From Synergistaceae bacterium (lineage in GTDB: Bacteria; Synergistota; Synergistia; Synergistales; Aminobacteriaceae), in contig JAIRYN010000060.1 of assembly GCA_031267575.1 (NCBI GenBank), positions 1 to 36,436 of the forward strand: 36,436 nt of DNA, given 5' to 3'. Each line of letters starts with the position of its first letter. The stretch's first letter is position 1. A program made the position numbers and the translations under genes. Below, in pieces: positions 5,842-22,544 of this stretch. The notes beneath the pieces were generated by a model. It was not told the origin of the DNA and made no database searches. It saw only the letters and a list, made by a program, of their open reading frames with translations.

Positions 5842-6039
5842 GCACGATTATAGATTCCGGGCCGACTCAAAATGATTTTGAACCGGGTTCGCTTTGTCAT
5901 ATAAGGCGTCAGCTTACGATAAAGCGATTCTCATCCAACGGCTTTAGCCGTTGGATGAGAATCGCAACGCCGCTGTTGGCAGCGTTTGTTTTGTATTTGG
6001 TTCCTTGCCTTATGTCTACTTTAATGTTAAATTTCTTTC

Positions 6040-6190
6040 ATGACTTATCAACGATGGATTCATTCGAACACATCTGTGTTCAATATTGACTAGCATCTTA
6101 TCTGGCGTCCCAAATATCGGCGCAAGGTGCTTGTTGGTGATGTAGAAATCCGACTCAAAGAACTTTTAGGAGAAAAGATTGAGTCGCCTC
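6040..6190 (+). pseudogene. tnpA: tnpA fragment: IS200-type Y1 transposase N-terminus with a nonsense codon
   Basis: From ATG 6040 the frame reads MTYQRWIHSNTSVFNID, then TAG, then HLIWRPKYRRKVLVGDVEIRL. The family normally has a Tyr before HLVWCPKYRRKVL, so a Tyr codon has become a stop. After about residue 48 (GEKIE) similarity to TnpA ends and TnpB-like sequence begins, so the HUH-Tyr catalytic portion is deleted. A triplicated 11-bp unit (ACCTACTATGC, 6200-6229) marks the junction. The gene is dead. Confidence 0.8.
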
Positions 6191-6780
6191 TTTCTATGCA
6201 CCTACTATGTACCTACTATGCACCTATGCACCGGGCTTCAGGTAAGCTCAAGAAATTTTCGCGAGAACTCAGCCATAAGAGACGAGGAAGCAAGAATTAT
6301 AAGAAAGCAAAGCTTGCTCTAGCCAGAACGCACAGGACAATCGCTAATCAACGTAGAGACTATCACTACAAACTGGCGCTTGAGTTCGCACGGTGGTATG
6401 CATCCATCTTCGTCGAGGACTTGAAGTCGAGGACTTGAACGTGAAAGCTATGCAACGCATGTGGGGTCGTAAAATATCTGATTTGGGACACGCTCAATTT
6501 CTCGGTATTCTTTTATGGGAGATGTACAAGAACGGCAATCATGGAACAAAAATCAAATGGAACAAAAATCGACAGGTTCTATCCTTCGTCAAAAACCTGT
6601 TCGTCCTGTTTTGATGTTCTTCCTGAGTTACCGCTGTCCGTCTGTGGCTGGACGTGTCCGAGATGTGGGGCGAAACACGACCGGGATATCAATGCGGCTG
6701 TAAATATTCTCAGAGTGGGGGCATCCACTCTTAAAGGAAAAGACGTAAGACCGGTTTCAGTTGGCTGTCTTTGTCGATCT
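6190..6780 (+). pseudogene. tnpB: tnpB fragment, frameshifted RNA-guided nuclease-like protein
   Basis: TnpB/OrfB signatures are spread over three frames: KLKKFSRELSHKRRGSKNY, VEDLNVKAMQRM, then FYPSSKTCSSC and CPRCGAKHDRDINAAVNIL (zinc ribbon and the last catalytic Asp region). Two tandem duplications cause the frame changes: 14 bp at 6412-6439 and 16 bp at 6541-6570. Removing them restores one continuous frame. The natural stop after GCLCRS is also lost through a 13-bp duplication (6778-6803). The N-terminal half is missing. It is not functional as a protein, although the 3' end could still yield an omega-RNA-like transcript. Confidence 0.88.
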
Positions 6781-6863
6781 TACAATCCCATCTTACAATC
6801 CCATGACTTTAGTCGTGGGAGTATGCCAAGCTTAACTTACTTACTTGCGCTTGAATAATCAAT

Positions 6864-7010: not shown

Positions 7011-8456
7011 ATGAACTTTGAATGCAAGCCTAAACGAGAGAATCGCTTCATTTCTCGAGTTGAAAAGCAAAAGCCAGTGGGAGAGAGAGTGAAGTCTATT
7101 GTCTTATCTTTATTAGAAGAACACTTTCCGAACGGCATACGTCCATACTCTGTCATCGATATAAATAAACTGAAAAGATACTATCGTAAGGCAGGTGAAA
7201 TTATTCCTCCGGATATGGACATATCTTCACTCTTGCAAGCTATCGGTATCTGGCACAGTGAGAAGATATTTGCCATTTCTCACAACAGTGAAAAAGGTCT
7301 TATAGGATTGCTCGAACGCCTTATTGCCGAGGGTAACCGATTATTTTACTATGATGAATTTTATGACGCCCACTCCGACTTTTTGCGAGAGGCGCGCATA
7401 TTCTCGTCAGATCTGTTAAAGACGATGTTATCGCATGTATTTCCGCTTTTACGCTATTCAAAAAATTATTTTTCAACAGAAAGCAATGTGACTGTGGAAT
7501 CCGAGGTATCGCGTTGCTATAAATCAGCAATTTACCTGTCATATGAGCAACTGAAAGCAAAATTGCCTTATGTGCCGCTCGAAAAAATCAAACAGGCGTT
7601 GGCGCAAAACAACGATTTTTTGTGGGTGTATCCAGGTATTTATATCCATACAAAAAAAATGGAATTTGACGAGTCCGAGCGCTATGCCACGGAGGCTAAA
7701 GTTGAGACTGAAATAGTTGAACACGGATATGCTTCTCTCGCCTTGCTCGACGTTCCAAATAGCCTCGAACTCAATCCCGAACTGTCAAAAACAGCTGTCA
7801 AGAATGGCTTGTTTCAACTTTTCCTTGCTGATCGCTACGAAAAGCGCGGTAATATTATCACACCGAAAGGCAAGCCGCTTAATTCCGTCGCCATATTTGA
7901 GCACTACTGCCTGACACATGACCATCTGACGTTGGATGAACTCTCCGCCTTAGAAAAGGACATCAATGGTAGCGTCCACAGCCAGGCGTTGCTTGTCGCC
8001 TATGACGTCATGGTGCGCGTGGATAAGGATGATTTTGTTGCCGATGCCGAAATCGACTTTGACGTCGAAACCACGGACAACGCGCTGGGCTTGTTTATCC
8101 ATACGGATGTTATTCCGCTTCGAACCGTAACGAGTTTCACTTCTTTCCCATACATCGAGGGTTATCGATGGAATCTGTTTCTGCTCGAAAGCTATTGCAG
8201 GCGGTTCAGTCAGCAATTCCAATATCAATGCCTAGTGATCAACAGCAGGAACGTCGGGGCAATTTTTCGGGAATCCGCGAGATTCGCCGACTATACCGAT
8301 GTGCTTGCTTTCGCCGCGGCAAACGCGGATGTGGAATTAAGGGAAAAAGAAGTCGGCGACTTTCTGTTCGACAGCGGTTACGTTGCAGCGAGAACGGCAA
8401 ACACGATTGCAAAAGTCACCGCGAAAGCACGAATCATAAGGGAAAGAAGAGTTTAG
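7011..8456 (+). CDS. First gene of the BREX island, unrecognised 481-aa protein with possible winged-helix domains
   Basis: ATG 7011 lies 10 nt after GGAG and the stop is 4 bp before brxP, so it is cotranscribed with the BREX genes. The product is soluble, with no signal peptide or membrane segment. Two stretches look like winged-helix DNA-binding units: about residues 40-92 (IRPYSVIDINKLKRYYRKAG to KIFAIS) and about 173-215 (YLSYEQLKAKLPYVPLEKIK to YPGIYIHT). The C-terminal half is mixed alpha/beta with a hydrophobic core (GYRWNLFLLESYCRRFSQQF). I do not recognise a named family. Position suggests a regulator or a recognition factor of this BREX subtype; both are guesses. Confidence 0.75.
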   Translation: MNFECKPKRENRFISRVEKQKPVGERVKSIVLSLLEEHFPNGIRPYSVIDINKLKRYYRKAGEIIPPDMDISSLLQAIGIWHSEKIFAISHNSEKGLIGLLERLIAEGNRLFYYDEFYDAHSDFLREARIFSSDLLKTMLSHVFPLLRYSKNYFSTESNVTVESEVSRCYKSAIYLSYEQLKAKLPYVPLEKIKQALAQNNDFLWVYPGIYIHTKKMEFDESERYATEAKVETEIVEHGYASLALLDVPNSLELNPELSKTAVKNGLFQLFLADRYEKRGNIITPKGKPLNSVAIFEHYCLTHDHLTLDELSALEKDINGSVHSQALLVAYDVMVRVDKDDFVADAEIDFDVETTDNALGLFIHTDVIPLRTVTSFTSFPYIEGYRWNLFLLESYCRRFSQQFQYQCLVINSRNVGAIFRESARFADYTDVLAFAAANADVELREKEVGDFLFDSGYVAARTANTIAKVTAKARIIRERRV

Positions 8457-8460
8457 AACA

Positions 8461-10830
8461 ATGTACGCATACACGCACGACGCGCAAACGGGTGGTTTGT
8501 TTCTCAATGATAGCACCCCATTGTTTTCCAAAGAGCCGCGCCCGGTGTATTACCGTGAACTCGATATTCTCGGTTTCAACGCGCATTGGAAATATGAGCA
8601 GCAAGACGAATTGCCCTATATGTGGGCGGAGGCGAATTGCTACTGGTACCGCGGACGTTTAGTGGTAAAAACCAGGGGAGGTTCTCTTTACACCGCGCCG
8701 GCATTGGAGTTTGTACTTGACGCTGACGGCGAGCGCGTTCTGCCGGACGGCGAAACGCTCTCTCCCGTCGACATAACCGCGATGATCGAGAAAAACCGTG
8801 AGCTGCTCGAAGTCATAGAACAAGTCACGGTGAAGAAGATATTTGACGTATATAAACGTTACCGCAAGAAACTGGATTGTTTCCACGTCGCCTTTTCGGG
8901 GGGTAAGGACAGCATGGTTTTGCTTGAACTCGTGAAGAAGGCATTGCCGAAGAGTGGTTTCGTCGTCGTGTTTAGCGATACGGGCATGGAGTTTCCCGAC
9001 ACATATGACGTTATCGATAAGATTGAGGAGCAGTGCCGTGCCGACGAAATAGAATTTTACCGCGCGGCGTCGCGTTTCAAGCCGGAGGAAAGTTGGCGAC
9101 TTTTCGGGCCGCCCTCGCGTGTGCTGCGTTGGTGCTGCTCCGTGCACAAATCCGCGCCGCAAACGCTGAAACTTCGGGAAGTGTTGGGCAAGTCCGAGTA
9201 TACAGGTATGGTTTTTGTCGGCGTTCGTTCACACGAAAGCGTAAAGCGGGATGAGCAATTAACGCAAAAAGAAATTAAGTATCAAAACCCCGACGAACTT
9301 GCATATATTGACTCTTATGACAAAATAAAGGGCCAAAGGGCTACGAAATCTATTTATGAATGGACATCGGCCGAAGTATGGCTTTATATATTCGCGAAAG
9401 GTCTGTTCATAAACGAAGCCTATAAAAAAGGAAGCGCGCGCGTAGGTTGTTTGTGCTGTCCTATGGGTAGTTCAAAAGCGGACTATTTTCAATACGTCAA
9501 TTACGCCGATGAGGTGGACAAGTTTACTCGCCTGATAAGCCTATCGAACGGACGCGAAAATATATCCGCTGAAGAATACGTCAGCAACGGTGGGTGGAAC
9601 GCAAGGAAGAACGGTCGCTTTTTGAAAGACAATCGACGGTGTTATTCCGAGATAACGGCAAACGGTTTGATTACCATCGAAGTGAACGAGCCGAAAACAG
9701 GCTGGTGTGAGTGGATAAAGACCCTTGGCGACTTAACATCGAACGGTAACAGGTATACGCTGGACTATGACGGTAAGTCAACTTCGTTTGAAGTCAAGAA
9801 GACCAATAAGTGTGGATATATCGTGACGTTGCCGGAACAGGTCGCAAGGGATAGCCCTGAATTCGGGAAACTATTCAGATATGTATTCCGAAAAGCCGCA
9901 TATTGCGTAAAATGTGCTACGTGCCAAGCGAACTGCAGGCAAGGTTGTATCTCTTTTAGCAAGGATGTCAAAGTAGAGGGTTGTATCCATTGCCATGAAT
10001 GTCATGACTTAATCGCCGGTTGCCTTGCCTATGATTCGTTAAAAATTCCAAACGGAGAAGGCGAAAAAATGGAAAAAGCAATTAACTGCTTTAGCAATCA
10101 CGCACCAAAAACGGACTGGTTTATCGGATTTTTTGGAAAGAAGAATGACTATCTTTCAAACAACACGTTGGGACCAGTTCAAAGAACGAAATTCAAACGC
10201 TTCTTGAAAGACGCGGGGCTTTTGGAGAGTGATCATTTTAGCGATTTCGCCGAAAGGCTTTCTTCTATTGGTTGGGACAGTGAGGTGGGGCTTGGGTTGT
10301 TGCTTGTCAACATCGCCTATAACCCACAGGTGGAATGGTACATCAAAAACCTCGACATCGGGCATGTTTATCCAAGAAAATCGATAGAGGATATGTTGAC
10401 GGCTATCGGGCAGAGCAAAGACAATATCGACAGCATAATACCGTCATTTAAGCGTCTCTGCGAACTCCCGTTCGGCACGAAGCTGAACTTCGGCACCGTC
10501 ACCGAAAAAAGACGGCAGATTGAAACGCTTGCCCGCAACAAATCCACACTCAAAGATAACCGTGTCGTCCTCTATTCGCTGTATAAGTTCGCGGAAGCCT
10601 GTGAAGGGTATTATCAATTTACGCTCACGCGTCTGCTTGATCACACGGTTGAATCCGCTGGTATCAGCCCCACGCGGATTTTTGGCTTCGATCGCGATGA
10701 AATGGAACGTTTCTTGAACGGATTATCCGCGAAGTACCCCGATTTTATCAACGCCGCGTTTACGCACGACCTCGATAAAATCACCCTTCGTGAGGATAAA
10801 ACATCTATAGATGTACTGACCCTGTTTTGA
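8461..10830 (+). CDS. brxP: BrxP: PAPS-reductase-like BREX type 4 protein with DUF4007 domain
   Basis: This 789-aa protein is the hallmark of type 4 BREX. An N-terminal region (1-135) precedes a PAPS-reductase/PP-loop domain with SGGKDS at 146-151, FSDTGMEFPDTY (171-182), RWCCSVHK (223-230), GVRSHES and the VGCLCCPMGSS cluster (328-338). DndC of DNA phosphorothioation shares this fold. A Cys-rich segment then resembles a ferredoxin-type double cluster (Cys482, 485, 488, 492, 496, 508, 511, 514, 521). From about residue 538 the sequence fits DUF4007 (FSNHAPKTDWFIGFFGK). The stop is 14 bp before the brxC ATG. The fold suggests activation or transfer of sulfur onto a nucleotide, perhaps DNA; that chemistry is inferred. 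Confidence 0.9.
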   Translation: MYAYTHDAQTGGLFLNDSTPLFSKEPRPVYYRELDILGFNAHWKYEQQDELPYMWAEANCYWYRGRLVVKTRGGSLYTAPALEFVLDADGERVLPDGETLSPVDITAMIEKNRELLEVIEQVTVKKIFDVYKRYRKKLDCFHVAFSGGKDSMVLLELVKKALPKSGFVVVFSDTGMEFPDTYDVIDKIEEQCRADEIEFYRAASRFKPEESWRLFGPPSRVLRWCCSVHKSAPQTLKLREVLGKSEYTGMVFVGVRSHESVKRDEQLTQKEIKYQNPDELAYIDSYDKIKGQRATKSIYEWTSAEVWLYIFAKGLFINEAYKKGSARVGCLCCPMGSSKADYFQYVNYADEVDKFTRLISLSNGRENISAEEYVSNGGWNARKNGRFLKDNRRCYSEITANGLITIEVNEPKTGWCEWIKTLGDLTSNGNRYTLDYDGKSTSFEVKKTNKCGYIVTLPEQVARDSPEFGKLFRYVFRKAAYCVKCATCQANCRQGCISFSKDVKVEGCIHCHECHDLIAGCLAYDSLKIPNGEGEKMEKAINCFSNHAPKTDWFIGFFGKKNDYLSNNTLGPVQRTKFKRFLKDAGLLESDHFSDFAERLSSIGWDSEVGLGLLLVNIAYNPQVEWYIKNLDIGHVYPRKSIEDMLTAIGQSKDNIDSIIPSFKRLCELPFGTKLNFGTVTEKRRQIETLARNKSTLKDNRVVLYSLYKFAEACEGYYQFTLTRLLDHTVESAGISPTRIFGFDRDEMERFLNGLSAKYPDFINAAFTHDLDKITLREDKTSIDVLTLF

Positions 10831-10844
10831 GGAGGAGCGACGCG

Positions 10845-13800
10845 ATGAATAAATACAGAGAGTATTTCGAGATAGATGAGGAATATTTCCCGGAAATCAA
10901 CGAATCGTCTATCAAGGCTGGCGTTGACTGGCGAAAGACTTTTCCACACAAGACGTTTATCGACCTCCTCAAGGCGACCGAGCGTATGCTGGCCCGTGCC
11001 ACCAACAACGACAAGAAAAGCATATGGGTCGAGGGCGCGTTTGGCACAGGCAAATCCCGAGTTGTCTGGACGCTGAAGAACTTACTCGACTGCTCCGAGG
11101 ACAAACTCAAGGCTTATTTTGCCGAATATCCCGATCTCCAAAAGCAGCCTGACTTGCTTAACAAACTTCTCGGCCACAAACAGGGGAAAATCGTAACGGC
11201 ATACCGTTACGCCTCCGGCAGTATCGACGGTGACCGCGCGCTTATCAGGACGGTATACGAAAGCGTGACAAAGGCTCTTCGTAACGCTGGCGTCGCGTAC
11301 AAAGGCGAGAACACTCTTCGCGGCGGCATCGCGACGTGGCTTTCCGACGAAGTTCATAAGGATTTCTTCAATAAATTGATATTAAAAGCAGAGTACAGAG
11401 GACTGGGCAGCTTTGCCGGGAAAACAGTCGAGGACATTATTGCGAGATTGAATAATCTCAACGCCGAAGTTGACGCCTTGATCAACGATATTTTCATTGT
11501 GGCCAACAAAGAGGGCATAACCGCGCTTTCCACAAGTATGGATGATCTCATTGCCTGGCTCACTGACGTCATCGATCAAAACAACCTCAAAGCAATCGTC
11601 CTCGTTTGGGATGAATTTTCAGCATACTTCAAGAAAAACCACACATCACTCGACGAGTTTCAGAAGCTTGCGGAATTTTCCAACTTCAAACCATTTTATT
11701 TAATGATCGTAACACATCAATCCGGCAGTATCTTCAGCGATACTGACCAGACGGGGAAAATTATTCGTGATCGCTTTGTCCGCAAAAATATAGAATTGCC
11801 CGATTCCATCGCGTTCGACCTCATCAAACATGCGTTGAAAGTGAAAGAAGCGGCAAAAGGTATATGGGACGGACTTGCTGACGACCTAAATGACCGCGTT
11901 AAGTTTTCGCGGCAAGAGGTATCGAATGCTGTACAAGTACATGAGGACGTGTTGAAAGGAATGCTGCCGATTCACCCGTTCGCGGCGCTGCTCCTCAAGA
12001 ACATATCGAGCGCCTTCGCTTCCAATCAGCGTAGTATGTTCAACTTTATCAAGAACGCCGAAACGGAAAACCTACAGGCGTTCCAGTGGTTTATCAACAA
12101 ATACAGTCCCGATGACGCCGATATTCTCACCATCGATTTCCTCTGGAACTTCTTTTATGAAAAAGGCACGGACGAGTATGGCGCCGGAGTCGGCAGAATC
12201 AACCTCGACTCCATGATCCGTGTTATCCTTGACACCTTTTCTCAAAACGAGGGCAGATTGAGTACGGAGGAAAAGCGCGTCCTCAAGACCGTGTTGATGA
12301 TGCAAGCCATCAATCAGAAACTCCAGGGCAGCATAGAATTATTCTCGACGACCGACCGGAATATCGACTGGGCATTTGAGGGCACAGACTTAGAAGACTA
12401 CCGCGCGGTCAATCTCGTTAAGAAATTAGTCGAGGACGGTATTCTATATGACAAACCTATGGGCGGAGGCAAAACTCAATACGCTGCCGCCGCCGTTTCC
12501 GGCGACCCAGCGCAGATCGACGCCATAAAAAAGCGACTTGTTAATGAAACAAAAACCTGGTCATTGGTGTCGAGCGGAGACCTTGCTTCCGCGCTTTTCC
12601 TCACACCCCCGCTTCGTTGTCGTTATAACGTTACGCCTATAACCGTCGAGAATTTCACCGTTATCATCAACAAAATCGCCAACGGGCCGTCGACGCACAA
12701 AATACGCGCCGTGTTGTCCTTTGCCCGCGGCGATGAGGAACGGAATAAAATCCGCGGACTTATCAGGGCTATAATGAAAGATGAACATTATGATGAACGT
12801 TATAAAGACCTTGTTTTTGTTGACGCTTCCACGGTTCTGGGACAAGAGTGTTTTGAGCGATGGGTTGAGTGCGCCGCGAATGAAGAATATTGGAGGCCGA
12901 AAGATGGTAAACTCGCCGACGAAATGTCCCGCAACGTGAAAGCGATACTTGAGGATTGGCGGACAAAAGTCGCCGGCGGTTTGTTTACCGTTTATTCGGA
13001 GTTCGCGAAAACAGGCGAGCCGTATGGAAGCGCTTCCGCCGTTCTCACAGCGTTGTCAAATATGGTTATCAAAAAATATCCGTTGTCCTTCGACAACGCC
13101 AAAGTTAGCGATCAAATGTTTAGTGCGTCGAATTTTCAGGCTGGTGCGAAATGCGGCATCTTGCAGACATGTGGAGGTGTGTTCCAACAATCCTTTGTGG
13201 CGTCGCTTATGCAGGGTGCATGGCTGACAGAAAAATACTGGGAGTCCGCGCCTACGCTTCCTCTTTCAAAGCTGAAACAGAAAGTTGACGACCAGATAAA
13301 AACCGCTTTTAATCGCAATGGGCAGATTGCGATCAGCGAGGTCTTTGACGCGCTGATGAAGAAGGGCTTTATGCCGTGCAACCTGTACGCCCTTTTGACG
13401 GGCTTCCTGCTGAAGGAATACGCTAATGATCCTTATCGTTACAGCGACGGCGATACCGGCGGCAGAATGAATGCCGAGAAATTGGCGGAAATTGTCAGCG
13501 AGTACATCAAACATAAAAATACGCCTATCCTGCGTTACAAGGAAAAATTTATCGAGGTGATGACCAAAGAGCAGATGGCTTTTGCGGACTTAGCGAAGGT
13601 CGTTTTCAGGATTTCCGACCACATATCTGTTGAACAAATAGCTGGCCATGTCCGATCCAAATTGAAAGAGCTGGGGTATCCAATTTGGTGTTTCAAAGAA
13701 ATAGACAACTACGGATTAGAGGATTTCATCGATAAATTCGCTGCGCTTGCCAATCCGAATAACGTCGGGGGCAGCGTAGCGACAATCGCGGCGGCAATCG

Positions 13801-15014
13801 GCAAAATGGCGCGCGAGACGCCGACAGCGGCGGGTAACCTCTTCGCGCTTCTTGACAGAGATAACGCACAGAAAGCGATGGAAGAATTTTTATCGTCCTT
13901 TGAAAATGGCGATCTCCCGACATTGGCCGCTGAAATAGGCGTTACGGACGTATTGCTTGACGTGAAACGCCAAGTAGGATCAGGCGAGGCGTTATGGCTT
14001 TGGGATCAAGAAACGGGCGAAGAAGAAATCCGTAAGTTGCTTACGGATTACAAAATCGTCGCCGCAAGCAACCGCATCAATACGAAGACGGCATCGCTTG
14101 CCGCTTGCCTACAAGAATGGAGAGAGAAAACCAAGTTTATAAAAATCCCCAGTTCGGCTCTCCTTACAGAAGCCCCCGTGCTTAAAACGTTCTTTCAAAT
14201 CTTGCGTGATATTGCCGCAAGTGGAGAACTGCCGTATGACAAGAGAGGAACTTTTCTCAAGGACATTGAAAACAATGCCGATGCGTTCACGAACTTTTTT
14301 GTATCGAAGACAGAGATTTTCAAGAGCGTTTATTCTTTCCACTTGAACGGATTCAGTGACAGCGAGATTGAGACGTTGTATTCAAAGCTGCCGATGACTT
14401 CTTTCACGGCTGACAAATTTGAGTGCGAAAGGAATGTCGCGGCGCTCGCCGAAAAGATGCGGAGCGAACAAGGAAAATACAAGCTGCATCAATTGTGGGA
14501 AGAAAAGACTTCATCGAAAACGCCTAAAGAATGGTCAAGCAAGAACAAGACGCCTATCTTTGCTCTTGTGCCCATCGACCTTCAAAGTGATGCCCGTCGG
14601 GTGTTTGACACGATTAACAGAAACAATCCCGAAGATAAGGACGTCAGGTTCGCGTTTGAATTTTTACAAACGAAAGCGGCGCTTCTTGCGGATCTGTCCA
14701 ACGAGACAAAAATCGACGCGGCATTTATGCATAATATTGTAGGAAAATTTGTCGTGGTACTGCCAAATGCCGAAGAAGTGCGCTCCAGACTTGAAAATGT
14801 CGTACCGTCAGACCATTATGACTGGTATGGCAATCCAGCAGTGCAGCGGCAAGTCGAGAAATTTGCTCAGGCTCGATATAATCAGAATGGAAGTGAAAAA
14901 GCTCTCGAAAGAATCGAAAAGATGGACGCCCGTAAAGCGAAAGAATACCTTAAGAGATTGATCAAGGATAATATAAATGTAGGAATTGAAATTATATCGG
15001 AAGAAGGAAACTAG
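10845..15014 (+). CDS. brxC: BrxC/PglY-family large ATPase of the BREX system
   Basis: The 1389-aa product has a P-loop GAFGTGKS at residues 64-71 and a Walker B-like strand IVLVWDEF at 251-258, as in BrxC/PglY ATPases of about 1200-1400 aa. The C-terminal two-thirds is helical without recognisable catalytic motifs. ATG 10845 is chosen because GAGGAGG stands 10 bp upstream; an in-frame TTG at 10827 overlaps the brxP stop and is less likely. The stop is followed after 2 bp by pglZ. BrxC is a core component of all BREX types and probably assembles as a multimer with PglZ and the modification module. Confidence 0.92.
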   Translation: MNKYREYFEIDEEYFPEINESSIKAGVDWRKTFPHKTFIDLLKATERMLARATNNDKKSIWVEGAFGTGKSRVVWTLKNLLDCSEDKLKAYFAEYPDLQKQPDLLNKLLGHKQGKIVTAYRYASGSIDGDRALIRTVYESVTKALRNAGVAYKGENTLRGGIATWLSDEVHKDFFNKLILKAEYRGLGSFAGKTVEDIIARLNNLNAEVDALINDIFIVANKEGITALSTSMDDLIAWLTDVIDQNNLKAIVLVWDEFSAYFKKNHTSLDEFQKLAEFSNFKPFYLMIVTHQSGSIFSDTDQTGKIIRDRFVRKNIELPDSIAFDLIKHALKVKEAAKGIWDGLADDLNDRVKFSRQEVSNAVQVHEDVLKGMLPIHPFAALLLKNISSAFASNQRSMFNFIKNAETENLQAFQWFINKYSPDDADILTIDFLWNFFYEKGTDEYGAGVGRINLDSMIRVILDTFSQNEGRLSTEEKRVLKTVLMMQAINQKLQGSIELFSTTDRNIDWAFEGTDLEDYRAVNLVKKLVEDGILYDKPMGGGKTQYAAAAVSGDPAQIDAIKKRLVNETKTWSLVSSGDLASALFLTPPLRCRYNVTPITVENFTVIINKIANGPSTHKIRAVLSFARGDEERNKIRGLIRAIMKDEHYDERYKDLVFVDASTVLGQECFERWVECAANEEYWRPKDGKLADEMSRNVKAILEDWRTKVAGGLFTVYSEFAKTGEPYGSASAVLTALSNMVIKKYPLSFDNAKVSDQMFSASNFQAGAKCGILQTCGGVFQQSFVASLMQGAWLTEKYWESAPTLPLSKLKQKVDDQIKTAFNRNGQIAISEVFDALMKKGFMPCNLYALLTGFLLKEYANDPYRYSDGDTGGRMNAEKLAEIVSEYIKHKNTPILRYKEKFIEVMTKEQMAFADLAKVVFRISDHISVEQIAGHVRSKLKELGYPIWCFKEIDNYGLEDFIDKFAALANPNNVGGSVATIAAAIGKMARETPTAAGNLFALLDRDNAQKAMEEFLSSFENGDLPTLAAEIGVTDVLLDVKRQVGSGEALWLWDQETGEEEIRKLLTDYKIVAASNRINTKTASLAACLQEWREKTKFIKIPSSALLTEAPVLKTFFQILRDIAASGELPYDKRGTFLKDIENNADAFTNFFVSKTEIFKSVYSFHLNGFSDSEIETLYSKLPMTSFTADKFECERNVAALAEKMRSEQGKYKLHQLWEEKTSSKTPKEWSSKNKTPIFALVPIDLQSDARRVFDTINRNNPEDKDVRFAFEFLQTKAALLADLSNETKIDAAFMHNIVGKFVVVLPNAEEVRSRLENVVPSDHYDWYGNPAVQRQVEKFAQARYNQNGSEKALERIEKMDARKAKEYLKRLIKDNINVGIEIISEEGN

Positions 15015-15016
15015 GC

Positions 15017-17155
15017 GTGAAAACCGTATCGGCGGAATCTGCTCTCGTAAATGTACGCAAATATCTGGAGAACGATGTCGTTACGCCGTTTGTCGTCGTC
15101 GTTGACGACAACGACGAATATTCCGACATTTTGAACGGCCTTAACACGCTTGCGTCATTACGCGTCAGCGACTATTGCGCCAAGAATGATTCATACCCGG
15201 ATCTTGACGCGCTTTGTGGCTGCATCTCCACGGTCACACAAAAATCGCTCCTGCTTGGATTGGGAGAAAGCGTCTCGTTCAGCGGCGATGAAGATGTTAT
15301 AGGAAAAATCAAGGACTTGACGCTTGCTGCAAAAGTAGTTGTTGTCTGCCGTGGGGTCCGCTCTACTGTGAATAGTCTTTGCGCGGATGACAAAAAATTT
15401 GACGGCAGGAGGATATGCTTTCTGAAATCAGGAGTAAACTATGAAATTATAAAATTCCCACCTTCACTTGAGGTGACGGCAATAAGCGGGTTCAAAGAAC
15501 TGCTTTGCCGTTTAGAAAACGGGGGAAGCGGCGCCTTGTATGTTAAAACCTCTTTGCCTCTTAACAACACCAAAGAGATTTGTTCAGCGTATGAAGCGAT
15601 TCGGCAAATAGAACCCACCTTTATGGTTGAGCAAGCTTGTCTGCCGGACAATCTTTGGACGAAATTTCTTGCCGATAGAAACCTCGAAGGATTCGACCTT
15701 TTTCATTGGCGCAGTTTTCTCAAACTGAAACTGGAACCGCCAACGAACGTATATCTTAAACACGTTGCGGACACATCCACCGGCTATAGCGCGTATAAAA
15801 AACGAGTTTTCTGCGCGCTGTTGGACTTTGCGACGAGCGACAAGCAGTTTTCTGAAATGTACACCGCCCGGAAAACCTTATTAAAGGATGTCAGGGACAG
15901 CGATATTGCTGAATATATTGCAGAAACGCAGGTCAAAGACAGTGACCGAATCTATTATTTGACTGACAATACGAAGGCAGAACGGCAAGCCGTCATTAAA
16001 TCCTTGAAGGACGTTATAGTCATTCCTGATGCCCTAAAAGATATATGCCCCGCATTGTATGATTATCTCTGCGATTTTTCATTCACGGGAGAGAAAGGCG
16101 CGTTGCTTTCCTGCTATTTTGCGGAGTATAAGCGTCTAAAGCTCACTAATAGACTCACGCCGGAATTCCATCAACAAGTGCTGGATTTAGCTATTGACGG
16201 AAGCCGTCCGTATAACAGCTTGAAAACGCGCGGAGCGGTTCTCGACAACCTTGGCAAGGAAAACACGGCATTATACTGGATCGATGCGCTTGGCGTGGAA
16301 TACCTTGGCTACATTCAAAGCCGTGCGAGTGTTCTCGGATTGAAAATTATGATTCACGTTGTCCGCGCCAATCTTCCGACCATTACGTCTTTTAACAATG
16401 ACTTTTATGAGGCATGGATCGGCGATAAAGCGCAGACTAAAGCTTTGGATAAAATCAAACATGAAGGCGAACAAGGTTTCGACTATCAAACGATAAAAAC
16501 TCCCGTTTATTTGGCGGAAGAACTTCGTATAATCGACGATGCTCTGGATTGGGCAAAAACAAAGCTCACCGGGAAAAATGCGGATAAGGTGGTTCTTATC
16601 TCCGACCACGGCGCGAGTCGTCTCGCTGTCACTAATGAACAAGAATGCAAATGGGAAATGACGTCTAAAGGCGAACATTCAGGACGTTGCTGTCCTTGCA
16701 ACGAAGCAGATGTAAAATCTGAATACGCCACTGAAGAGAACGGCTTCTGGGTTCTTGCCAACTACGACCGTTTCAAAGGCGGCCGCAAAGCAAGCATTGA
16801 AGTTCACGGCGGGGCAACTCTTGAAGAGGTCGTTATCCCGCTTATCGAAATTGAATTGTTCGATACTAAAATTGAGGTGAGCAACACCACGCCTGTAACT
16901 ACTGCGAGTTACAAGAAAAACGCTGAAATCATACTTTTCAGTAAGAGTGCATTAAATAACGTCTCTATCCAAGTTATCGGGCGACGGTACTACGCGGAAA
17001 CAATCGGCAATAACAAGCACAAGGTAACATTCTCCGATATAAAAAGGTCTGGAAAACACGTCGCCGACGTATTCGAGGGAGATAGCTTAATCGGGAAGGT
17101 AGAGTTTGAAATCCAACGCGAAAGCGGAAAAACAAACGACTCCGACTGGTTTTAA
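15017..17155 (+). CDS. pglZ: PglZ, alkaline-phosphatase-fold BREX core protein
   Basis: PglZ is the marker protein of BREX, a predicted metallo-phosphatase/phosphodiesterase of the alkaline phosphatase superfamily. In this 712-aa protein the family motifs are YWIDALGVEYL (from residue 420) and LISDHGASRLAV (from 527), with Asp and His as likely metal ligands. The conserved GEHSGRCC segment (552-559) is also present. The GTG start at 15017 lies 2 bp after the brxC stop and has a weak ribosome site (GGAAAC upstream), so coupling to brxC is likely. The N-terminal half is unmatched, as is common in the family. Confidence 0.92.
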   Translation: MKTVSAESALVNVRKYLENDVVTPFVVVVDDNDEYSDILNGLNTLASLRVSDYCAKNDSYPDLDALCGCISTVTQKSLLLGLGESVSFSGDEDVIGKIKDLTLAAKVVVVCRGVRSTVNSLCADDKKFDGRRICFLKSGVNYEIIKFPPSLEVTAISGFKELLCRLENGGSGALYVKTSLPLNNTKEICSAYEAIRQIEPTFMVEQACLPDNLWTKFLADRNLEGFDLFHWRSFLKLKLEPPTNVYLKHVADTSTGYSAYKKRVFCALLDFATSDKQFSEMYTARKTLLKDVRDSDIAEYIAETQVKDSDRIYYLTDNTKAERQAVIKSLKDVIVIPDALKDICPALYDYLCDFSFTGEKGALLSCYFAEYKRLKLTNRLTPEFHQQVLDLAIDGSRPYNSLKTRGAVLDNLGKENTALYWIDALGVEYLGYIQSRASVLGLKIMIHVVRANLPTITSFNNDFYEAWIGDKAQTKALDKIKHEGEQGFDYQTIKTPVYLAEELRIIDDALDWAKTKLTGKNADKVVLISDHGASRLAVTNEQECKWEMTSKGEHSGRCCPCNEADVKSEYATEENGFWVLANYDRFKGGRKASIEVHGGATLEEVVIPLIEIELFDTKIEVSNTTPVTTASYKKNAEIILFSKSALNNVSIQVIGRRYYAETIGNNKHKVTFSDIKRSGKHVADVFEGDSLIGKVEFEIQRESGKTNDSDWF

Positions 17156-17170
17156 TGGGGGAGATTTATT

Positions 17171-18634
17171 ATGATTGGTAAGTTGAAAAACTGCTTTGAC
17201 GAAATGGTTGTCTACAAAGACTTAAAGACGAGCAATTTTTTCTCTGCGCTAAGTCTTCCCTCGTTTATGCGCGACTGGCTCCTCCGTCGATTTGAAGATG
17301 AGTCCGGCATGTTCAGCGAGGATGAGCTAGCATCGTTTGTCCGCGAGTTTATTCCACACAGAGAAGACTGGACGGCAATCAAGAATCGTATCATCAAGGA
17401 AAATGAGCAGGTAAAATTACTGGCGAAGATTTCCGTGGATATCGACATCCGCACTGGCGAGGTGTCGTTTGCGCTGCCCGACTTTGGCTTGACGACAAAA
17501 CAGACCGTTATCGAGGATTCGGTTTGGAATTCTTGCAAACAGGAACTTGTCAAAGGACGCGAGGTATGGGGTATGCTTGAACTCGGTTATCGTCTGCCGG
17601 ATGACAGTGTAACACCTAAGTTGCCTGGGAAGATACGTCTCGTGAGCTTCAAGAACTTCTGCCCGTACTCAATCGAACTCGATTACTATAAGGATGTTCG
17701 TGGCGAGTTCTCCACCACAGAATGGCTCAATGTGCTTCTTGGTGCGGTGGACTATAACGCAAACGGTTATAAAAACGAAGAGGAAAAGCTGACTATACTG
17801 ACGCGTCTATTGCCCTTCACGGAGAAGCGACTGAACCTTATCGAACTCGCCCCGAAGGGAACGGGAAAGTCGTATCTGTTTGGGCGGGTCAGCCGTTTCG
17901 GATGGCTGTCGAGCGGTGGTGTAATGAGCCGCGCTAAGATGTTTTACGACATCTCCAAACAAACAGAGGGGCTCGTGTCCGGTAACGATTTTATCACGCT
18001 TGATGAGGTCCAGACCATATCCTTTACGGATGTCGACGAAATGAGAGCCGCGTTGAAAGGGTATCTTGAATCCGGGGTGTATACCGTGGGCAATTATGAG
18101 GGTGTTGCCGACGCGGGCGTTATTCTTTGCGGCAATATATCGAAAGCAACAATGGACAACGATGGTACGACAAATATGTTCGAGGAACTTCCAGCCGTAT
18201 TCCACGAGTCCGCGCTCATAGAACGTTTCCACGGTTTCATCAAAGGATGGCATATTCCACGCATGAATGACGACCTGAAAATATCTGGGTGGGCATTGAA
18301 CTCGGAATATTTCTGCGCTATACTCCATGAACTTCGTAACGATGTTACCTATCGCGCTGTGGTGGATAAATTGGTGAACGTACCCGAAGCCGCGGATACT
18401 CGCGATACGGAGGCGATCAAACGAATTGCTACCGCCTACTTGAAATTGCTGTTCCCGAACGCGCGAAAAGCGGAAGACATAGCGACTCGCGATTTCAATC
18501 GTTATTGTTTGCGACGCGCCTGCGCTATGCGCGCCACAATCAAAATGCAGTTGGGGATACTCGATTTGGAATACCAAGGCAAGGATATACCGCAATTTAC
18601 AGTCAACGAGGTGAACAGCAGTGAAACAAACTGA
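17171..18634 (+). CDS. brxL: BrxL, Lon-like AAA+ protein of the BREX system (short form)
   Basis: The 487-aa product begins MIGKLKNCFDEMVVYKDL, as BrxL proteins do. It carries a Walker A APKGTGKS (227-234), a Walker B FITLDEVQ (274-281) and the SRAKMFYD/KGYLESG region typical of BrxL AAA+ domains. It ends soon after the ATPase and lacks the C-terminal Lon-type protease domain found in the roughly 670-aa BrxL of type 1 BREX. This short form is usual for type 4. ATG 17171 follows GGGGGAG. The last 14 bp overlap the next small gene. Confidence 0.9.
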   Translation: MIGKLKNCFDEMVVYKDLKTSNFFSALSLPSFMRDWLLRRFEDESGMFSEDELASFVREFIPHREDWTAIKNRIIKENEQVKLLAKISVDIDIRTGEVSFALPDFGLTTKQTVIEDSVWNSCKQELVKGREVWGMLELGYRLPDDSVTPKLPGKIRLVSFKNFCPYSIELDYYKDVRGEFSTTEWLNVLLGAVDYNANGYKNEEEKLTILTRLLPFTEKRLNLIELAPKGTGKSYLFGRVSRFGWLSSGGVMSRAKMFYDISKQTEGLVSGNDFITLDEVQTISFTDVDEMRAALKGYLESGVYTVGNYEGVADAGVILCGNISKATMDNDGTTNMFEELPAVFHESALIERFHGFIKGWHIPRMNDDLKISGWALNSEYFCAILHELRNDVTYRAVVDKLVNVPEAADTRDTEAIKRIATAYLKLLFPNARKAEDIATRDFNRYCLRRACAMRATIKMQLGILDLEYQGKDIPQFTVNEVNSSETN

Positions 18635-18830
18635 AAACATGGATTGCTTTGTTTGCGGCAAAAAACGACTCTCCAAGAATGAAATCGGGTTGAACAAGAA
18701 AATGATTGGGCGGGGAGTGAAACAGTTTTACTGTTTGACCTGTTTCGCTGAATATTACGGCGTTACTTCGGAGGAGCTGCTCGCTAAAACAGAAGATTTT
18801 AAGTTGCAAGGATGCGTGCTATTCGAATGA
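18621..18830 (+). CDS. Small 69-aa zinc-finger-like protein at the end of the BREX operon
   Basis: A GTG at 18621 overlaps the end of brxL by 14 bp, so translation is probably coupled. The product has CFVCGKKRLSK (Cys10 and Cys13) and YCLTCFAEYYG (Cys38 and Cys41), giving a CxxC-x24-CxxC zinc-binding layout, followed by a short acidic tail. The clean frame, overlap and Cys spacing support a real gene. Function is unknown; possibilities are a DNA- or protein-binding accessory of the BREX complex or a regulator. The IS remnant begins about 85 bp downstream. Confidence 0.7.
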   Translation: MKQTENMDCFVCGKKRLSKNEIGLNKKMIGRGVKQFYCLTCFAEYYGVTSEELLAKTEDFKLQGCVLFE

Positions 18831-18860: not shown

Positions 18861-18914
18861 TCAACACAAATACGCTCATGCTTTACCGTGACCACGCAAA
18901 ACAAGGACTATACC

Positions 18915-19185
18915 TTAACTTACTCCCACGACTAAAGTTGTGGGAGCCTAAGATCGACAAAGACAGCCGGCTGAAACCGGTCTTACGTCTTCTCCTTTAA
19001 GAGTGGATGCCACCACTCTGAGAATATTTACAACTACATTAATATCCCGGTCGTGTTCCGCCCCGCATCTTGCGTCGATAAGCCATAAAAGAAGTTTAAC
19101 ATAAAATAACATAAAAGTAGACATATTAGACATATGGCAAGAAATCCAATACAAAACAAACGCTACCGTTGGATGAGAATCGCTT
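18915..19185 (-). mobile_element. Deleted IS200/IS605-type remnant, right copy, inverted relative to the left one
   Basis: Read on the minus strand, it begins with a left-end sequence matching the left copy (CGATTCTCATCCAACGG, then AGCGTTTGTTTTGTATT). It has lost the second hairpin arm and nearly all coding sequence, and ends with a tnpB C-terminus and the right-end hairpin at 18923-18946 (CTCCCAC...GTGGGAG). Two short tandem duplications (19097-19116 and 19119-19135) sit at the deletion junction. It could only move in trans. Confidence 0.82.
18948..19075 (-). pseudogene. tnpB: tnpB C-terminal fragment
   Basis: The minus strand encodes RCGAEHDRDINVVVNILRVVASTLKG and then GCLCRS before a TAG stop at 18948. 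This is nearly the same as the end of the left tnpB copy, which has lost its stop. Only the second half of the zinc ribbon and the final Asp region remain. The sequence upstream of it is not TnpB-like, so the gene is truncated. Confidence 0.85.
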
Positions 19186-19214
19186 TAACGTAAAACATCT
19201 TCTTCGGCTATAAT
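19185..19214 (+). promoter_or_regulatory. Candidate promoter for the QueG-related gene
   Basis: TATAAT at 19209-19214 is perfect, with TTAACG at 19185-19190 18 bp upstream. The -35 lies in or against the end of the inverted IS remnant, so the IS may supply part of this promoter. A GGGGGA ribosome site and the GTG start follow. Confidence 0.55.
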
Positions 19215-20264: not shown

Positions 20265-20296
20265 GATGATTCACGTCAGAGATGATTCACGTCAGA
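20265..20296. repeat. 16-bp perfect tandem duplication at the antitoxin start
   Basis: GATGATTCACGTCAGA occurs at 20265-20280 and again at 20281-20296. Removing one copy would join the ATG at 20251, which has a proper ribosome site, in frame to the antitoxin. With the duplication, that ATG now opens only an 18-codon frame ending at 20304. Confidence 0.97.
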
Positions 20297-20554
20297 ATGG
20301 ATGAAAACGTCAAGGCGCAAGCGGTAGAGGCGTTGTCCGATATGGGGTTCTCTTTGTCGGATGCCGTGCGAGTTTTTTTGACGAGGGTCGCCCTTGAGAA
20401 ACAATTCCCCTTTATTCTCAAATCGCCTAATGTTGAAACGATTGCCGCCATGAAGGAAGCCGATGAAATAATTGAAATAATCAAGACAAAGCGCGCACGG
20501 TTTGGGAGCGCTGACGAAATGTTCGATGACCTCGAAAAGAATCTCTGCCGATAA
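20282..20554 (+). CDS. relB: RelB/DinJ-family antitoxin
   Basis: This 90-aa protein has the ribbon-helix-helix N-terminus of RelB/DinJ antitoxins (MIHVRMDENVKAQAVEALSDMGFSLSDAVRVFL), which binds operator DNA. A C-terminal part would wrap and neutralise the toxin. The present start, ATG 20282, lies in the second copy of a 16-bp duplication and has no ribosome site of its own. The ancestral start was probably 20251 (five more residues plus MIHVR). Translation may depend on reinitiation from the decoy frame 20251-20304. The toxin gene overlaps its 3' end by 29 bp. Confidence 0.88.
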   Translation: MIHVRMDENVKAQAVEALSDMGFSLSDAVRVFLTRVALEKQFPFILKSPNVETIAAMKEADEIIEIIKTKRARFGSADEMFDDLEKNLCR

Positions 20555-20858
20555 ACGCGCACATCTTCCATTAATCCCGGAATACACGAGGGCATTTTCA
20601 AAAGACTGGGAGCGCTTATCTATGCCAGGACGATATGATATAAATAGGCTCAAGGAAGTTATGCTGTCATTGATTGGCAATAATGGCCCACTACCGCCCG
20701 AGTGGTTAGATCATCAACTGTCTGGCGATTGGAATATGCATCGCGACTGCCATATGGGTGGCGACTTTCTGCTTATATATAGGGTCAATGTACCAGAGAA
20801 ACCTGGCAAAATCGTATTTGTGCGAGCCGGAACACATTCTGAACTATACCTGAGGTGA
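20526..20858 (+). CDS. yafQ: YafQ/RelE-family mRNA interferase toxin
   Basis: The product (about 110 aa from ATG 20526) shows YafQ features: YTRAFSKDWERLSMPGRYDINRLKEVM, GPLPPEWLDHQLSGDW, then RDCHMGGDFLLIYRV and a C-terminal FVRAGTHSELY. The His residues of HxLxG/RDCH and the terminal TGTHSELF-like motif are those implicated in ribosome-dependent mRNA cleavage. The start overlaps the antitoxin by 29 bp, as is usual for coupled expression. An upstream in-frame TTG (20502) is unlikely. The toxin looks intact, so antitoxin supply matters despite the altered relB start. Confidence 0.88.
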   Translation: MTSKRISADKRAHLPLIPEYTRAFSKDWERLSMPGRYDINRLKEVMLSLIGNNGPLPPEWLDHQLSGDWNMHRDCHMGGDFLLIYRVNVPEKPGKIVFVRAGTHSELYLR

Positions 20859-21027
20859 CGATAATCGATCTACAAAGCGTGCCCTAAAAAAACAAAACAA
20901 GTCATTCCTTGCAAGGAAAGGACTAATGAATATTTTGCAACTCAGTGTCGCTAATTTAATGCCCTGTTAATCTCTTGACTTCCAATTTAGGCGATGTTAG
21001 CATGTCATTAATGAAATAAAGGAATAC

Positions 21028-21100
21028 TTTCTTGTATAAGTTCATCAATTTGGGATGAACGTTTCTACCGGACGACCTAATCGTTTTAGGCTACAGGAAA
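21028..21100 (+). ncRNA. Purine riboswitch aptamer, guanine class
   Basis: P1 is TTTCTTGTA (21028-21036) with TACAGGAAA (21092-21100): nine pairs, one of them G-U. TAA follows. P2 is GTTCATC with GATGAAC (7 of 7), with L2 AATTTGG. The invariant GTTTCTACC lies at 21061-21069. P3 is GGACGA/TCGTTT with two G-U pairs, and L3 includes CCTAA, whose CC can pair with the L2 GG. The base before P1' is C (21091, equivalent to C74 in xpt), which specifies guanine-type ligands; adenine riboswitches have U. It lies 155 bp before guanine deaminase. I could not fix a terminator or SD-masking helix in the expression platform. Confidence 0.92.
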
Positions 21101-21254
21101 ACAGATTGCCGACTGAAAGGTGGGTAAGATGCTTTTTGTGGTCTAGAATATTTTGCGACCTTATCGTAAGTTTGTTAAAAAGCGCCGAAGTCCCTCCGTT
21201 TCCACAACAACAGAAAGAAACACGAATCTATAGGAATGGGGTGTGAGAGGAGGA

Positions 21255-22544
21255 ATGTCTCAAAATAGTTTCGTACTGAAGGGAAATGTTTGTTACAGTA
21301 AGGACGCGCAAACAATGGAATGCGTGAAAAACGGCTATGTGATATGCGTGGGCGGAGTTTCGCAAGGCGTGTTTCGACAACTTCCAGATAAGTATACAAC
21401 CTTGGAATTGCGCGACTACGGCGATAAACTCATTCTGCCGGGATTGGTAGATCTCCACGTACACGCGCCGCAACACCCATTTAGGACGTTCGGTATGGAT
21501 CTGGAACTCATCGACTGGCTGAACACTCATACTTTTACCGAGGAAGCAAAATACAAAGATCTCGACTATGCCGCAAAAGCGTACCGGATTTTTGTGGAAG
21601 AAGAGTTGAAAGGCCCCAACACACGTATTTGCGCGTTTGCGACGATTCATGCCGACGCGACCTTGTTGCTGATGGACATAATGGAAAAATCGGGCCTTGT
21701 CAGTTTTATCGGCAAGGTCAATATGGATCGCAACAGCCCTCCGAGTTTACAGGAAACGGACGCTGTCGCTTCGGCGCGGGACACCGTCCATTGGATTGAG
21801 GAAAGCGCTCGTCGCTACAAAAACACAAAACCTATCTTAACTCCACGATTTATTCCCTCCTGTAGTGACGAACTGATGACAAAACTCCATGGCATCCAAA
21901 AGCAATATGATTTACCGGTCCAGTCACATTTATCCGAAAACATGGGTGAAGTCGAATGGGTCAAACAACTCTGTCCAGATTCCAAGTTTTATGGTGACGC
22001 GTATGACAAATATGGGATGTTTGGAAACGGCGCGTCTACGATTATGGCGCACTGCGTATGGGTTGAAGACGAGGAAACGGAGCTGCTCACGAAGAATCGG
22101 GTATTTGTCGCGCATTGCCCGGAGTCCAACATCAATCTTTCTTCAGGCATCGCGCCGATTCGTCAATTTTTGCGGAAAGGCGTTCCGGTCGGACTGGGCA
22201 GCGACATCGCCGCTGGTACAAAAACTCCCATATTCGACGCGATGGCCTCCGCTATTCGAGTCTCGAAGCTTTACTGGCGCTTGGTCGACTCCAACTCCAG
22301 GCCGCTATCGGTAGAAGAAGCGTTTTATCTTGGGACAGTGGGCGGCGGCGCGTTTTTTGGCAAAGTGGGCAGTTTTGAGAAAGACTTCGAATTTGACGCT
22401 ATTGTCCTCGACGATTCCTCTATAGCGAGGGCCAGGGAACTTACTTTACTGGAAAGAGTCACGCAAATGATCTACCTCTTCGAGCAAAACCATATATTCG
22501 CAAAATATGCGCGCGGACGAAAATTGTACTCAAAAATAGCGTGA
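21255..22544 (+). CDS. guaD: Guanine deaminase
   Basis: This amidohydrolase converts guanine to xanthine and ammonia in the cytoplasm. Motifs are LILPGLVDLHVHAPQ (zinc ligands HxH), VQSHLSENMGEVEW, MAHCVWV and VGLGSDIAAGT (catalytic and metal Asp), with CPESNINLSSG between them. About 429 aa is normal for GuaD. The start is uncertain: ATG 21255 has AGGAGG only 1 nt upstream, and GTG 21243 lies 12 nt earlier with a weak AGGAATGGGG. It is the first gene after the purine riboswitch. The next gene starts 14 bp after its stop, so the product xanthine feeds the xanthine dehydrogenase encoded downstream. Confidence 0.95.
   Translation: MSQNSFVLKGNVCYSKDAQTMECVKNGYVICVGGVSQGVFRQLPDKYTTLELRDYGDKLILPGLVDLHVHAPQHPFRTFGMDLELIDWLNTHTFTEEAKYKDLDYAAKAYRIFVEEELKGPNTRICAFATIHADATLLLMDIMEKSGLVSFIGKVNMDRNSPPSLQETDAVASARDTVHWIEESARRYKNTKPILTPRFIPSCSDELMTKLHGIQKQYDLPVQSHLSENMGEVEWVKQLCPDSKFYGDAYDKYGMFGNGASTIMAHCVWVEDEETELLTKNRVFVAHCPESNINLSSGIAPIRQFLRKGVPVGLGSDIAAGTKTPIFDAMASAIRVSKLYWRLVDSNSRPLSVEEAFYLGTVGGGAFFGKVGSFEKDFEFDAIVLDDSSIARARELTLLERVTQMIYLFEQNHIFAKYARGRKLYSKIA

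Follow-up and report, generated by a model that had tools for sequence, protein, structure and literature searches.

The operon and its flanks

In the 36,436-nucleotide stretch of Synergistaceae DNA analysed here (contig JAIRYN010000060.1; hereafter the window), six co-directional genes occupy positions 7011-18830 of the forward (+) strand in the order X-brxP-brxC-pglZ-brxL-zf. The first gene of the operon, X (7011-8456), encodes a 481 aa protein with approximately six predicted winged helices in series. It is followed by brxP (8461-10830), encoding a PP-loop, PAPS-reductase-like sulfurtransferase, and brxC (10827-15014), encoding an ATPase of 1395 aa when read from the TTG at 10827 (an alternative ATG lies at 10845). 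Downstream are pglZ (15017-17155), which encodes a BREX-4 type protein of the alkaline phosphatase fold, brxL (17171-18634), whose product joins a BrxL N-terminal domain to an AAA+ ATPase, and zf (18621-18830), which encodes a 69 aa zinc-ribbon protein from a GTG start. The genes abut or overlap throughout, as the initial annotation had described: X and brxP are 4 bp apart, brxP and brxC approximately 14 bp (or they overlap by 4 bp with the TTG start), brxC and pglZ 2 bp and pglZ and brxL 15 bp, and zf overlaps brxL by 14 bp. That annotation named a complete island of brxP-brxC-pglZ-brxL. The four core genes are indeed complete and lie in this order on a single strand, but for this lineage a four-gene system is not the complete one: the coordinates given also span two genes absent from the text of that annotation, X and zf, and both are conserved members of the operon.

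Profile searches place BrxP, BrxC, PglZ and BrxL in BREX type 4. BrxP, in the place of PglX, matches the PADLOC model PDLC02510 over 788 of 789 residues (E 1.4e-243), the short BrxP model PDLC02511 over residues 542-787, and Pfam PF01507 (E 2.9e-27). Its SGGKDS motif, the cysteines C225, C226, C330 and C333, and the eight cysteines of a double ferredoxin-type region are invariant or nearly so across 70 homologues, and its C-terminal region is of the DUF4007 type, which has been linked to SspB (PMC12839542). BrxC matches PDLC02485 (BrxC-PglY) over its full length (1124 bits) and has the Walker motifs GAFGTGKS and VLVWDE. PglZ scores 400 bits against the NCBIfam model NF033445, 'BREX-4 system phosphatase PglZ' (cut-off 140), and comparison with homologues shows its metal-site residues to be kept (D423, T457, D478, H482, D530, H531 and H597). 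BrxL matches TIGR02688 (388 bits, cut-off 329), PF13337 (5.9e-108) and PF20442 (3.5e-30), and carries the motifs APKGTGKS and FITLDE; the ATPase and phosphatase motifs are thus intact, as had been claimed. The window BrxL is a short form in which Pfam and NCBIfam models found no Lon protease domain, and since it matches the N-terminal and ATPase models only, the name 'Lon protease' does not fit it.

No window ORF of at least 200 aa bears the N/DPPY motif of N6-methyltransferases, and the only methyltransferase motif in the BREX-4 loci compared was one DPPF within an X gene. Two Eco57I-family matches lie on other contigs of the genome; the one inspected shows a weak likeness to MAD2. Given the profile matches, the intact motifs and the absence of a methyltransferase motif in the window, the initial annotation was correct, and 7011-18830 is, judged by its sequence, an intact BREX type 4 operon without a PglX-type methyltransferase. 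The operon belongs to BREX type 4 of the phosphorothioating, not the methylating, kind, which is a type already known.

The primary paper on BREX-4 phosphorothioation is reportedly that of Yuan et al. (Nat Commun 2026;17:1717). Two papers (PMC12839542; PMC11931770) both rest on Yuan et al. for this activity. In type 4 BREX, which is recorded in 457 taxa, DNA phosphorothioation replaces methylation (PMC12839542, Rakesh and Krishnan 2026). The components given are BrxC, PAPS reductase, DUF4007, PglZ and BrxL, and a small zinc-finger protein is also mentioned (PMC12839542). BREX-4 is described as brxPCZL (PMC11931770; PMC12707154), and brxPCZL is counted as one of three families for phosphorothioate (PT) synthesis (PMC11931770). 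The sulfur mark put forward in the initial annotation is therefore supported but established knowledge (PMC12839542; PMC11931770). Its description of type 4 as the rarest BREX type finds no support, given the count of 457 taxa and the term 'limited' for types 5 and 6 (PMC12839542). Phosphorothioation by BREX-4 is taken here from this literature, which concerns other BREX-4 hosts.

The window operon shares with published BREX type 4 its four core proteins, their order, the lack of PglX and the zinc-finger protein (PMC12839542), but it adds X, has a BrxC longer than that of X-less BREX-4 and holds no desulfurase gene inside the island. With BREX type 1 (BrxA, BrxB, BrxC, PglX, PglZ, BrxL) it has the BrxC, PglZ and BrxL machinery in common, but it lacks the PglX methyltransferase and its BrxL lacks a Lon domain match. 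BrxP resembles SspD and BrxC resembles SspC, with weak scores of at most 60 bits; these were the only signs of an Ssp system (SspB, SspC and SspD with SspE or SspFGH), and the window has PglZ and BrxL instead of the SspE or SspFGH effectors. BrxP is also a PP-loop enzyme of the DndC superfamily like those of Dnd/Pbe systems, but it scores 35.9 bits against the DndC model TIGR03183 (cut-off 290.4), which places it outside Dnd, and no DndB, DndD or DndE match was found among the window proteins scanned.

The operon is flanked by remnants of a tnpB element. On the left is a decayed IS200/IS605 element (5914-6830, + strand) with OrfB_IS605 and TnpB matches in two broken ORFs, and on the right is a second, more deleted copy (18914-19193, - strand) that forms an inverted repeat with it. 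The arms 6661-6790 and 18941-19070 are 90% complementary, and the arms 5914-5941 and 19166-19193 are 96% complementary; both copies have their right ends toward the operon. This arrangement suggests a mobile history, without pointing to a mechanism. Further to the right, a gene pair at 20282-20858 resembles, by eye, a RelB/DinJ-type antitoxin followed by a RelE/YafQ-type toxin. A purine riboswitch (21012-21113; Rfam RF00167, 57 bits) lies just 5' of a gene for a guanine-deaminase-like amidohydrolase (21243-22544).

Co-occurrence of X and zf with brxP

The apparently new point at this locus is gene X; the BREX-4 operon itself is ordinary in kind and intact. The window X protein has no match among Pfam, PADLOC, NCBIfam or PHROG models, a sequence search of the PDB with the X core was also empty, and no counterpart of X is among the BREX-4 components described in the available text of PMC12839542 and PMC11931770. 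Relatives of the window BrxP were sought in GTDB genomes, which gave a main set of 58 loci, and in 53 of these a profile search found X 5' of brxP. In four of the five remaining loci the contig stops no more than 174 bases from brxP; the last one, L049, has a divergent X by profile-profile comparison (hhalign), so that all 54 assessable loci have X or a divergent X. As this search was seeded with the window BrxP, two further samples were drawn with the PADLOC BrxP model. X precedes six of the eight assessable brxP genes in a Clostridia sample (391 genomes) and seven of eight, two of them divergent, in the phylum of the window (188 genomes). Five IMG/VR contigs were found with X as query, and in each brxP adjoins X. 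The X family was thus recovered independently from genomes and from IMG/VR contigs, with the window X (P0001) standing as the first row of alignment A1 and matching its profile, and the pairing with brxP spans bacterial phyla and one archaeon. A second BREX-4 locus in the Flexilinea flocculi genome (L113) is divergent and encodes a separate X of 1176 aa.

One record was set aside as a possible phage-borne X system. MT835511.1 (L187), deposited in GenBank as 'Bacteriophage sp.', holds a complete X-type BREX-4 and a desulfurase amid chromosomal-looking genes. As the record is marked unverified and its neighbouring genes read as chromosomal, it is no evidence of a phage-borne system and is probably a bacterial fragment.

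Of 70 BrxP sequences placed in a tree, 61 fall in the window clade, and X is present in all 57 of these that can be assessed. Among the other nine rows, one has X, two have a divergent X, one has an unrelated ORF of 464 aa and five are X-less (L114, L116, L138, L139 and L145); the five form one branch with support of 97. X presence also tracks a longer BrxC, by a comparison with three X-less sequences only: these BrxC proteins are 1120-1189 aa long and lack most of what corresponds to residues 1075-1395 of the window BrxC, those of X systems being approximately 200-275 aa longer. The system with the unrelated upstream ORF (L134) retains a long BrxC. On present sequences, BREX-4 falls into two lineages, one bearing X and a long BrxC, the other lacking X and having a short BrxC.

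The zinc-ribbon gene is similarly constant, being found in all 43 main-set loci with a readable brxL end; in one (L024) it has been relocated to the front of the operon, and where X is divergent its place is between pglZ and brxL. Its cysteines (a CxxC near the N-terminus, a second CxxC and a further C) are conserved in 41 sequences. A cysteine desulfurase gene occurs in 29 loci, as a rule at the operon end, beside zf or brxL, and is reported to accompany type 4 BREX in 56% of taxa (PMC12839542). There is none in the window, and a NifS above the curated cut-off is encoded on another contig of the same genome.

Fold, modules and relatives of X

An AlphaFold2 model of the X core, built on an alignment of 51 cores, has a mean pLDDT of 92.4 and a repeated helix-strand-helix-helix-strand-strand pattern, and predicts with high confidence a series of approximately six winged helices. 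In Foldseek the PDB entries that match best, among them UFL1, the SelB C-terminus and Dcc1, are built of winged helices in series, and no viral model matched the structure at E 0.001.

X proteins range from 450 to 1660 aa. More than 60 residues, and up to 1179, precede the core in 35 of 41 intact relatives, and these N-terminal regions are built from modules, up to five in tandem, that are shuffled into 16 architectures among the 41 proteins. The turnover is seen among close relatives, with cores that are 70-78% identical preceded by modules 'ab' (L012), 'c' (L013), 'bc' (L015), 'b' (L059) or none (L018). The window X is a bare core, one of the few without N-terminal modules. By profile match, the modules with recognisable kin are DNA-binding types: a Cro/C1 HTH module in L019 (HTH_26, 1.8e-19), three HARE-HTH modules in L051 (4.2e-27), and two RNAP alpha-CTD modules (RNA_pol_A_CTD, 3.1e-16) with a sigma region 4 (Sigma70_r4, 3.4e-7) in L113. 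An integrase SAM-like match (Phage_int_SAM) is weak, occurring in eight of 32 module copies with a best value of 3.8e-4, and modules c and d gave weak or chance matches only in Pfam, PADLOC, NCBIfam, PHROGs and the PDB. Comparison with PDB sequences gave no support to module d as a sulfur-binding (PT-reader) domain. Matches to module a within the X core were set aside, probably being profile drift.

Weaker relatives of X are present in Clostridia beyond BREX-4. In one genome (L185, 5945-17302) a 1334 aa relative lies directly before genes for PbeA, PbeC/DndD, DndB and DndC, a link to the Dnd/Pbe systems that places a putative X-type protein beside another phosphorothioation system. In three further genomes (L173, L184 and L186) X relatives adjoin PDC-M33, a candidate defence system of PADLOC, the PADLOC names for this neighbourhood coming from a scan of L184 only. 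In several Clostridia (L175-L181), relatives of approximately 400-920 aa also have ordinary chromosomal genes as neighbours. In one BREX-4 lineage, X is a conserved and modular subunit that probably binds DNA.

A proposed role for X in target recognition

The conservation of X is an observation, whereas its function is a proposal: X may be the DNA-recognition subunit of this branch of BREX-4. Sulfur would be supplied by the NifS-family cysteine desulfurase encoded elsewhere in the genome. BrxP, through its PP-loop and Fe-S regions and its DNA-binding C-terminal region, would then act with BrxC and X to place phosphorothioate at particular host DNA sites, and unmarked phage DNA would be stopped by the BrxC, PglZ and BrxL machinery, in which PglZ is the likely metal-dependent effector. 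X may dock on the long C-terminus of BrxC and provide or tune the recognition of DNA targets, as a counterpart of the recognition domain of PglX in methylating BREX. Phosphorothioation in itself does not require X, given that some BREX-4 systems lack the gene and presumably function. As the window X has no modules, any recognition by this protein must come from its winged-helix core. Serial winged helices can also serve as protein or RNA scaffolds, as in UFL1 and SelB, and the distant relatives beside ordinary chromosomal genes in Clostridia likewise count against a recognition role. Taken as a whole, a phosphorothioating BREX-4 with X as its target-recognition subunit is the best explanation and a reasonably probable one. 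More tentative, though still plausible, is a swappable form of it, in which X docks on BrxC, the N-terminal modules set the sequences that are phosphorothioated or attacked, and relatives of X serve other phosphorothioation or defence systems.

Fast turnover of modules on a conserved scaffold also fits an arms race, and X could instead be a phage sensor that detects DNA, RNA or proteins of the phage through its shuffled modules and triggers the effector, with BrxP and BrxC setting the modification sites. BrxP is kept in X-less systems, the RNAP alpha-CTD and sigma region 4 modules could mimic phage-bound host factors, and X relatives adjoin other defence clusters (PDC-M33 and Pbe/Dnd). A sensor is nevertheless somewhat unlikely, given that the modules with known kin are DNA-binding types and that the window X is module-free in an operon that looks intact. 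The position of X as first gene, its richness in winged helices and the HTH_26 or sigma-like modules of its homologues would suit a transcriptional regulator, or an operon-linked DNA-binding protein outside the defence complex. Such a role is improbable, as a regulator would not be expected to have a length of 450-1660 aa and as many as five modules in tandem, to accompany brxP wherever the clade can be assessed, in bacteria of different phyla and in an archaeon, or to track a longer BrxC.

The published descriptions of BREX-4 as brxPCZL (PMC11931770; PMC12707154) and the five X-less systems would agree with a plain four-gene system in which X and zf are passengers. This is very improbable, since essentially all assessable members of the window clade have kept both genes, which argues that they are not mere passengers.

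The available portions of the papers cited do not explain the choice of sites for sulfur marking by BREX-4, or how the system distinguishes phage DNA from that of its host. The presence of a conserved subunit whose DNA-binding modules are interchangeable makes the question testable, and the split between X-bearing and X-less systems has to be borne in mind when findings from one model system are carried over to another. If the swappable form is true, X would be an HsdS-like specificity part that is unrelated to HsdS.
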